Origin: Prochlorococcus sp. MIT 1341
GTDB lineage: Bacteria > Cyanobacteriota > Cyanobacteriia > PCC-6307 > Cyanobiaceae
Direction: 5' to 3'
Length of the DNA: 64,000 nucleotides
NCBI RefSeq assembly: GCF_034092415.1
Contig: NZ_CP139304.1
Coordinates: 1 to 64,000 of the forward strand
The notes under the pieces are model-generated. The model saw only the letters and a list, made by a program, of their open reading frames with translations. It did no database searches and was not told the DNA's origin. Made by a program: the position numbers and the translations under genes. Of the stretch, positions 23,757-26,708 are shown piece after piece; position 1 is the stretch's first letter, and the number at the start of each line of letters is the position of its first letter.

Positions 23757-25367
23757 TTAGAATATGAATGGTAAAAATAGTAGCTCTGAGCCTTCAAGGT
23801 TAAGGCTAAGAGTAATTGTATTGGATGATGGCCTTGGTGCACCGAAAGTCTCGTTAGTGCTTCCATTGTTCACTCCAATGGCTGGCCAGGAAGAAGGAGC
23901 AATAGACAACCTTAGATTTTGCCCAGTTAACAAGTCTGCTCTCAATGGTTGAAGAAGGATTTGATGAAATGATTCTTCTAAAGCTTTTGATCCAATGACT
24001 CTTAAAAATCCAGTTGAAAGCTGCATTACTTTCTCCTTTTTTTTATCCACTGCTGAAAGAGCTATACATAGGTCGAAACCTTTCTGGTCAGAATGTGCTT
24101 TGATTCTCAGAGACGGTACACCTTCTAAGTGAAGGGTTTTGGTTAGCACCTTGCTTGTGAACTTGGCTACATCCATCCTTAAGTCAATCTTTCGTCTGTC
24201 AACCAAACCAGGCTCTTCAGATAGATGGCCTCCTACGGCTGGTACTGGGCGCCACGGATCGTGGACTAAGGTCACTCCTCCACTTCCTTTTGCCGCTGTT
24301 AGGAGGGCTCCCTCTTCTTCGCTTGCACAAGCAAGCCCATCACTAGAAAGGCTCCATACAGAACCTAAAGGCTTGGAGGGCTTGCTTAAATCTTTAGGCG
24401 TTTCCCATCGTTCGGTAGTTATGTTCCAAAGTTTTATTAGAGACTTATGATTCGGTGTATCTCCATCTTTTTTTAGGTGTTTGTTAAAGAATTCAAGTTG
24501 TAATTGATTTGTCCCCTGCCACCATTCGAGGTGAGTGGCAGGACCTATATGAATTTCAGGATTTCCACCAGAATTTTTTGAAAGATTGTATAAATCAAAA
24601 ATTCCTCTGAGATGAGGGTCCCACCAACCCCCAATTAAAAACATTGGCTTTTTTAACCATGTTTTTAATGGTTTATGCTTTTGTGAAATGTTGATCTTTT
24701 CGGAGCTCTGCGTAAGCCATTTAATAGCCATCCCTTTTGGGTCGTATGTTTTAAGTATTTGTTCGCCATGCTGTAAATAACTTCCACTTGTAAGGGCTTC
24801 CCTCATGTCGAGCCAATCCGACTCTTTTTTGTCTCTTTTTGCTTTTAAAGCGGCTAATTGAATTCCCCAGGCAATTCCAATATGCCACCAATAAGCACCC
24901 CCATCACAGCTCCAGTGAGAGCATTCGTCTAAACCTGTCATTGCTGGAGCAAGACAATCTGGAGGAGGAGTTCCTGGATTTGCTAATAGTTGGGTAAAAC
25001 CTTGATATGAAAAACCGTAGGTTCCTATTTTTCCGTTGCACTCTGACAAAGACCTTACCCAAGAATGCGTTTCGGTTGTGTCTGATTCCTCTTGGCAAAA
25101 ACCATTAAATTCTCCACCTGAATCACCTTGCCCACGAACATCTTGGACGATTACTAAATAACCATGGCTAGCCCACCATTCTGGATGAGCATAAGTAATA
25201 GTTGATGCTATAGATTTCCCATAGGGTTGACGCATTAGTAATGCCGGCCATGGACCACCTTCTTTAGGGTGCCAACATCTGGAAATTAAACTTACCCCAT
25301 CTTTAAGGGTTAAAGATATGTCTCGCCAGACTATTGAGCCAGGTTGAAAACTTCGTTTAGCGAACAT
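23757..25367 (-). CDS. CocE/NonD family hydrolase (peptidase S15 type)
   Basis: The 536-residue protein has an alpha/beta hydrolase domain with nucleophile Ser in GTYGFSYQGFTQ, the oxyanion region VIVQDVRGQGDSGG, the Asp in GGWWDPHLRGIFDLY and the His in IGPATHLEW, followed by the C-terminal jelly-roll domain typical of Xaa-Pro dipeptidyl-peptidase/CocE proteins. No signal peptide is seen. Substrate could be an ester or peptide; the family name does not decide. It overlaps the upstream small gene by 11 bases. Confidence 0.88.
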   Translation of the reverse strand: MFAKRSFQPGSIVWRDISLTLKDGVSLISRCWHPKEGGPWPALLMRQPYGKSIASTITYAHPEWWASHGYLVIVQDVRGQGDSGGEFNGFCQEESDTTETHSWVRSLSECNGKIGTYGFSYQGFTQLLANPGTPPPDCLAPAMTGLDECSHWSCDGGAYWWHIGIAWGIQLAALKAKRDKKESDWLDMREALTSGSYLQHGEQILKTYDPKGMAIKWLTQSSEKINISQKHKPLKTWLKKPMFLIGGWWDPHLRGIFDLYNLSKNSGGNPEIHIGPATHLEWWQGTNQLQLEFFNKHLKKDGDTPNHKSLIKLWNITTERWETPKDLSKPSKPLGSVWSLSSDGLACASEEEGALLTAAKGSGGVTLVHDPWRPVPAVGGHLSEEPGLVDRRKIDLRMDVAKFTSKVLTKTLHLEGVPSLRIKAHSDQKGFDLCIALSAVDKKKEKVMQLSTGFLRVIGSKALEESFHQILLQPLRADLLTGQNLRLSIAPSSWPAIGVNNGSTNETFGAPRPSSNTITLSLNLEGSELLFLPFIF

Positions 25368-25650
25368 CAGGGCAGTTCAATCCAATAACATACGTTGAAA
25401 GAATCTCTGCATCTATTGGATTTAGATTTCGTTTGCGGGCCACTTCACTTATTGCAATGTTAGAGCTAGCAGATATTCCTTTTTCGTTTAGAGCTTTAAA
25501 TTCCTTGCAAAGTGCAATTGCTTCTTGAGGATTGCCCTTTACACTTTCTAGAAGACTTGACTGAGCCTTAGCCGTTGAGATGTTGCTTAATCCAATCATT
25601 ATGATTGGGACCAAGTATTTAATTGAGATCCCACTTTGCGAAATAAACAT
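25357..25650 (-). CDS. small exported protein, function unknown
   Basis: From the ATG at 25650 the protein has 97 residues; a TTG at 25668 would add six. It begins with a signal peptide (hydrophobic YLVPIIMIGLSNI, cleavage near STAKAQ). The mature part has two cysteines (ALCKEF and GLNCPDV), probably one disulfide, and a repeated pattern around ISEVARKRNLNPIDAEILSTYV. It overlaps the CocE-type gene by 11 bases. I recall similar exported proteins in picocyanobacteria but cannot name a family. Confidence 0.65.
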   Translation of the reverse strand: MFISQSGISIKYLVPIIMIGLSNISTAKAQSSLLESVKGNPQEAIALCKEFKALNEKGISASSNIAISEVARKRNLNPIDAEILSTYVIGLNCPDVR

Positions 25651-25690
25651 ATTTGAATGTAAGAACAACGCATGATGATCTGATGTTAGG

Positions 25691-26095
25691 TCAGTTGGCT
25701 ATTTTTATGCCTTTTGCACGTTGAATCCATTCATTTGCTTTAACAAGATCAATTGAGTTTTGAAAGTCACTTTTAAGTTGACGTTGAAGCCGTCCAGTTT
25801 TTTTAACAACTTCTTGTGGGGTTGTGTTGGTCAGGGCTGCGGCCGATGAAAGCCCTGAGTGCATTAGAAGGGCAGCTTCATGAGGCTCAATGCTTAGTTC
25901 GCAGACAAGTTTTGCTATGCCACGGATTTTTTTCAAGTTTCTACTAGATAAATTGCCCTTTCTTGTTAATAGGCTTATTTCTGAATCCCTTAGAGCTTTT
26001 AGCTCTAGCCAGGTTCTTGTTCCCGCAGCTCGAAGAGTATTGATTTCTTTTTTGAAGTTTTTAGATAAGAACGTTAAGCTATCTTTAGTTTTCAT
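25691..26095 (-). CDS. DUF4332-like helix-hairpin-helix protein
   Basis: The 134-residue basic protein has a helical segment (RGIAKLVCELSIEPHEAALLMHSGLSSAAALTNTTPQEVVKKTGRLQ) that resembles the DUF4332 helix-hairpin-helix, a fold usually associated with nucleic-acid binding or scaffold roles. Its ATG lies inside the last unit of the 24-bp tandem repeat at the end of the ycf51 gene, and the two genes overlap by 11 bases, so translation is probably coupled. Confidence 0.7.
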   Translation of the reverse strand: MKTKDSLTFLSKNFKKEINTLRAAGTRTWLELKALRDSEISLLTRKGNLSSRNLKKIRGIAKLVCELSIEPHEAALLMHSGLSSAAALTNTTPQEVVKKTGRLQRQLKSDFQNSIDLVKANEWIQRAKGIKIAN

Positions 26096-26708
26096 CAGAG
26101 TTTAAGGAAGTTTCTTCATCAGAGTTTAAGGAAGTTTCTTCATCAGAGTTTAAGGAAGTTTCTTCATCAGAGTTTAAGGAAGTTTCTTCATCAGAGTTTA
26201 AGGAAGTTTCTTCATCAGAGTTTAAGGAAATCTCTTCATCTACCTTTAAAGGAACATTGATTGTCGTGTTTTGCTTGAGATCCCGAATCACTTCTCCGAG
26301 GATTTTAGGTTGGCTGATCCCTTCACCATTTGATAACACTTGTCTAATACGTATATGAACAGGGGCGCCATTTCGCCCTCCTCCTCGAAGGTTTTCAGCT
26401 AATTGCAGCAATGTTGGTTCAATTGATTCTTCTGGAAAATCGTTGTTAGCTTGTGCTACAACAAGATTGTCTCCATTGTCGAAGACAATCGGGGGGTGTA
26501 ACGCGCCTTCTATTACTACTGGAGGCGTATAGCTAATACCAAAGGCCCATGAACTGCCAGCTAAAAGCAGCGTAAATGCTAAGACTCCTACTAAGCGAAA
26601 GCTTTGCTTCCATTTGACCAAAAATGAGATCAATGTCAAAAGGCTCAGTGCAAGTGAGGCCCAAAGAAGCCATTTGGTGGATGTTTGAAGAAGCTCGAGA
26701 AGAGACAT
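26085..26708 (-). CDS. ycf51: Ycf51 family (DUF2518) membrane protein with repeat tail
   Basis: The 207-residue protein has two N-terminal transmembrane helices (about residues 10-30 and 38-55) joined by KWKQSFRLVGV, then the Ycf51 soluble domain (VFDNGDNLVVAQANN ... ENLRGGGRNGAPVHIRIRQVL). Residues from about 160 onward are an acidic tail of an 8-residue unit, SLNSDEET, present six times with a divergent first copy (SLNSDEN at the end). The tail is not part of the family domain. The gene is divergent from the TamB-like gene, 66 bases apart. Confidence 0.8.
   Translation of the reverse strand: MSLLELLQTSTKWLLWASLALSLLTLISFLVKWKQSFRLVGVLAFTLLLAGSSWAFGISYTPPVVIEGALHPPIVFDNGDNLVVAQANNDFPEESIEPTLLQLAENLRGGGRNGAPVHIRIRQVLSNGEGISQPKILGEVIRDLKQNTTINVPLKVDEEISLNSDEETSLNSDEETSLNSDEETSLNSDEETSLNSDEETSLNSDEN
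26092..26235. repeat. 24-bp tandem repeat, six copies, within ycf51
   Basis: TCATCAGAGTTTAAGGA recurs at 26092, 26116, 26140, 26164, 26188 and 26212, exactly every 24 bases; the sixth unit diverges at its right end and a decayed seventh may start at 26236. The period is a multiple of three, so changes in copy number keep the frame. Each full minus-strand unit also carries an out-of-frame ATG that opens MKKLP and stops, except the last, whose ATG is the start of the next gene. Confidence 0.95.

Follow-up and report, generated by a model that had tools for sequence, protein, structure and literature searches.

The tandem repeat that closes ycf51 in the stretch of DNA analysed here (64,000 nucleotides from Prochlorococcus sp. 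MIT 1341, referred to as the window) is best understood as a protein tail that has been lengthened repeatedly, since relatives carry different, separately arisen repeats in the same position. In-frame tandem duplication appears to have recurred in the unfolded, acidic, cytoplasm-facing tail of Ycf51 while the conserved overlap with the next gene stayed unchanged, a reading to which we assign a probability of about 0.8. It draws on the array itself and its frames, on recurrence with unrelated units, on the acidity and predicted disorder of the tail, and on the conserved start and overlap. The features concerned, in window coordinates, are the following.

26085..26708, minus strand: ycf51 (DUF2518), encoding a PSI assembly factor homologue of 207 aa (ORF and PF10726 match, E=1.9e-43).
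26091..26240, minus strand: 24-bp tandem array of 6.2 copies, encoding (SLNSDEET)n (TRF score 286; unit unique to the locus).
26241..26258, minus strand: possible decayed "zeroth" unit, encoding NVPLKVDE together with 26235-26240; putative end of the ancestral tail of ~20 aa (in-frame match to unit 1 at 9/18 bases).
26102..26239, minus strand: six closed out-of-frame mini-ORFs, MKRFP-stop from 26239 and MKKLP-stop from 26215, 26191, 26167, 26143 and 26119 (sequence).
26093..26095, minus strand: ATG start of the DUF4332 gene within the last repeat copy, giving an 11-bp overlap (26085-26095) with ycf51 (ORFs and conserved start-to-motif distance).
25691..26095, minus strand: DUF4332 gene (PF14229), 134 aa (PF14229 match, E=1.5e-26).

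The array has a period of 24 and a 98% match between its copies, and its TRF score of 286 compares with 58 for the runner-up in the 64-kb window. Its presence at the end of ycf51, described in the sequence-only reading, is thereby confirmed to the base, and the accompanying view that the array is young agrees with the five copies that are identical at every base. In the 1.94-Mb genome the unit occurs as five exact copies and one with two mismatches, all within the ycf51 array and nowhere else, and the exact unit was absent from the viral contigs searched. A promoter and terminator scan of the region gave nothing above chance. The 9/18-base match of the sequence preceding the array is equalled by 6 of 149 in-frame windows, and the identity of NVPLKVDE as a decayed zeroth unit is suggestive only. 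If the six units were removed, the tail would read ...NVPLKVDEN-stop, which at 20 residues has the usual length.

The array has the properties of an in-frame minisatellite within a gene: tandem near-identical units, a period that is a multiple of three, a lineage-specific unit and an acidic, unstructured product encoded in a disordered region. It differs from such minisatellites in spanning a gene overlap, so that every unit also copies the start codon of the neighbour. With phase-variable contingency loci it shares the tandem repeat and the potential for copy-number change, but the 24-bp unit, a multiple of three, keeps both frames and leaves the overlap as it is; a change of copy number therefore cannot frameshift either gene off or on.

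According to a commentary and a review (PMC11062422, PMC11449065), Ycf51 acts in PSI assembly, has two membrane helices and a C terminus on the stromal side, and in Synechocystis interacts with PsaC and Ycf3. The window protein matches PF10726 over residues 1–142 (148 bits against a curated cut-off of 25), and begins with two membrane helices, followed by a folded domain extending to about residue 152 and an unfolded acidic tail. In the AlphaFold2 model, the helices comprise residues 3–30 and 36–59 and are followed by an alpha/beta domain; pLDDT is 94–98 up to residue 150, and from residue 161 onwards it is 52–64 and the chain lacks secondary structure. The tail is thus predicted to be unfolded, with the array starting just after the end of the modelled fold. 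It reads ...VDEEISLNSDEETSLNSDEET...SLNSDEN-stop. The protein resembles Synechocystis Ycf51/DUF2518 (sll1702) in its two N-terminal membrane helices, conserved folded domain and full Pfam match, but carries a 50-residue repeat tail past the conserved domain, while the tails of Synechococcus-like relatives measure 5–15 residues. All 46 Ycf51 tails of at least 30 aa are net acidic, compared with 40% of gene ends in this genome, the 46 being partly related, with about 20 of them from one genus. A search of solved structures gave no credible relative of Ycf51 or of the DUF4332 protein, an NCBIfam search gave no match, and a literature search found no paper on repeats in Ycf51.

The downstream protein matches PF14229 with 93.4 bits (cut-off 23.2); a literature search on DUF4332 function gave nothing beyond one passing mention. 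The final ATG of the array is very probably the true start of this gene, since its distance to a conserved [LP]xxNF motif is maintained among homologues: it is nine residues in the window and likewise in 57 of the 82 loci in which the motif could be located, arrays present or not. The earlier proposal that the ATG of the last unit opens a DUF4332-like gene overlapping ycf51 by 11 bases is backed by this distance. Among the 73 loci whose tails have at least 10 aa, 56 show an overlap between the two genes, most commonly of 8, 11 or 4 bp. Near relatives that overlap share the 11-bp length whether they carry an array (L008, L011) or are array-free (L009, L010), in agreement with the earlier claim that neither frame need shift when the repeat gains or loses copies. 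The short conserved overlap between adjacent genes is like that of translationally coupled pairs, of which the present pair is a candidate, with the difference that an array lies directly upstream of the second start. The DUF4332 gene appears to have been lost in L060, L031, L035, L055 and L139, where the next gene is a homologue of window 25357-25668. In relatives of genus g18 (L084, L085, L087-L090, L094), Ycf51 is 147 residues long and almost tail-less, and DUF4332 starts 10–11 nt past its stop.

The recurrence of arrays was assessed in the family, where ycf51 is present in 350 of the 400 genomes searched; 113 loci were read, one genome per species, many of the relatives being partial single-cell or metagenome genomes. 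A search of genome contigs gave three relatives, among them the nearest named one, L037 (Prochlorococcus sp. AG-363-P19), whose tail and array are identical to those of L008. Twelve of the 113 loci (11 distinct, L037 being the same as L008) have tandem arrays in the stretch from the folded domain to the stop. There are 13 arrays in 9.0 kb of tail against 11 in 305.6 kb of flanks in the 113 loci, a density about 40 times higher relative to a control made up largely of folded coding sequence. All main periods are multiples of three: 18, 24, 36, 39, 42, 45, 48, 51, 54, 54 and 57 bp.

The units themselves are diverse and include NEIIEP in four copies (L008), a 19-residue unit in four copies (L011), QNAENLQASEPPLD in three copies (L025) and an 18-residue unit in 12 copies (L062). 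They are not recognisably one family, since only one of 55 unit pairs compared fell at p<0.03, which is about chance level. L023 and L062, which share a genus code and a 54-bp period, might have a common origin. Ycf51 of L062 (L062:1001-2113) has a tail of 232 residues with about 12 copies of its unit, which makes the tail longer than the folded domain. The window's own genus contains two relatives with other units (18 bp and 57 bp) and one array-free species. When the array label is mapped onto a Ycf51 domain tree (147 columns), at least nine changes are needed, with many forks poorly supported and the starred branches forcing only three.

Array-free neighbours have tails of about 20 residues that end in [N/D]-E-x-stop, such as ...VQKQINEI-stop (L009) and ...QQENEN-stop (L027), and the AATGA or GATGA within this ending provides the start of the following gene. 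The arrays of L011 and L032 visibly repeat this ancestral motif. The ancestral tail of the clade probably had about 20 residues and this same ending, its codons holding the ATG with which the next gene begins. If a multiple of 3 bp were duplicated beside the junction, the tail would lengthen and the ATG would be copied as a fossil start, while the last copy would stay the working start, which leaves the geometry of the junction unchanged. Copies may then be gained or lost through replication slippage or recombination between copies. Constraint appears to act on composition (acidic and unstructured) and on frame only, which would explain why each lineage has its own unit; constraint on tail length is presumably weak. 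The out-of-frame ATGs would arise from GAT-GAA pairs and would normally be read through by ribosomes translating ycf51, presumably with no initiation there.

Array enrichment in the ycf51 tail may be a property of acidic tails in general. The genomic background was a 464-kb sample, made up of the window and 20 evenly spaced stretches, in which further strong in-frame arrays occur. At L168:11408-11965 (genome C1:1731408-1731965, plus strand) a small membrane protein unrelated to Ycf51 has an acidic tail in which a 24-bp in-frame array of 8.3 copies encodes SEELTGSV. Four relatives of that protein carry different arrays (L171, 48 bp; L173, 18 bp; L192, 45 bp; L195, 87 bp in 5.3 copies), which suggests that acidic tails in these genomes tend to expand recurrently and that ycf51 is no special case. 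Two other repeats were observed in the sample. At L165:1472-2782 (genome C1:1451472-1452782, plus strand) a 436-residue frame consists almost entirely of imperfect KAAEDRKAA-type repeats and probably encodes a coiled-coil or charged-helix protein, and at L169:1-99 (genome C1:1810001-1810099) a 15-bp unit is repeated at least 6.6 times with a 98% match, up to the edge of the stretch.

An alternative would make the tail an adaptive tether: selection would act on the length of an acidic repeat arm that binds or shields PsaC, among the stromal subunits of PSI, or Ycf3 during assembly. The tail may contact these proteins. In favour of a tether are the stromal C terminus of Ycf51 and its interactions with PsaC and Ycf3 (PMC11449065, PMC11062422), the retention of acidity despite sequence turnover, and the repeated expansion. 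Yet marine Synechococcus-like and g18 relatives are nearly tail-less (5–15 residues), so the tail is not required for the core function of Ycf51. Moreover, the published interactions concern Synechocystis, where neither paper maps them to a tail (PMC11449065, PMC11062422), and another, unrelated acidic tail expands likewise. We consider a tether of this kind unlikely. Similarly doubtful is its broader form, in which Prochlorococcus-like lineages would have repeatedly reinvented an acidic arm from whatever local sequence was at hand, under selection for length or charge, so as to tune PSI assembly through PsaC/Ycf3 contact.

The out-of-frame ATGs gave rise to another proposal, that they tune translation of DUF4332: each copy would catch initiating ribosomes and free them after five codons, and copy number would set expression. 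Such ATGs precede the DUF4332 start by 24, 48, 72, 96, 120 and 144 nt in the +1 frame, and a TAA closes every one of them. The sequence-only reading had every unit but the last opening MKKLP-stop, which is correct for five; the most upstream, with its first base at 26239, reads MKRFP-stop. The local arrangement suits a decoy, since each copy has the same 24 upstream bases as the true start and each stop lies 6 nt before the next ATG, and the 11-bp overlap conserved in near relatives is consistent with coupling. Closed mini-ORFs, however, are not a common feature of the relatives' arrays. Upstream ATGs number from zero to six across the loci, with four in an open frame in L008, three in L011 and two in L131; upstream ATG mini-ORFs were not found in L009, L010, L014, L025, L027 and L032, so that even the arrays of L025 and L032 lack them, and there is no conserved mini-ORF.

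Arrays are also present where the two genes do not overlap or the second is missing: in L023, L053, L062 and L063 DUF4332 starts beyond the ycf51 stop, and L060 has an array but no DUF4332 gene, ycf51 being followed there by the gene that usually comes after DUF4332. The RNA over the window array folds no better than shuffled sequences and is less stable than they are (z +0.94), with no stable structure found around the start; inspection of the sequence revealed no Shine-Dalgarno-like motif at the internal ATGs, which would be covered by ribosomes elongating along ycf51. An acidic tail, finally, yields such ATGs automatically, because 486 of the 634 Asp/Asn-Glu codon pairs in this genome (77%) create one, and the decoy ATGs are best read as a by-product of Asp-Glu codons. 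That the repeat serves to provide or tune the downstream start is not supported, and regulation by copy number is very improbable.

An assembly or sequencing artefact is hardly credible: short reads do assemble near-identical copies poorly, but the genome is a single 1.94-Mb contig of 99.98% completeness, the 150-bp array leaves both frames intact, and analogous arrays occupy the same place in independent genomes.

Under the preferred reading of recurrent in-frame tail duplication, the repeat itself is ordinary, and what is new is that many lineages have grown unrelated in-frame arrays in the same tail of a PSI assembly factor, often with the array spanning a gene overlap that is itself preserved. 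The finding also advises caution, in that out-of-frame ATGs in acidic repeats should not be taken as regulatory. The ycf51 tail offers a small natural example of duplication shaping the evolution of both disordered tails and overlapping start codons.
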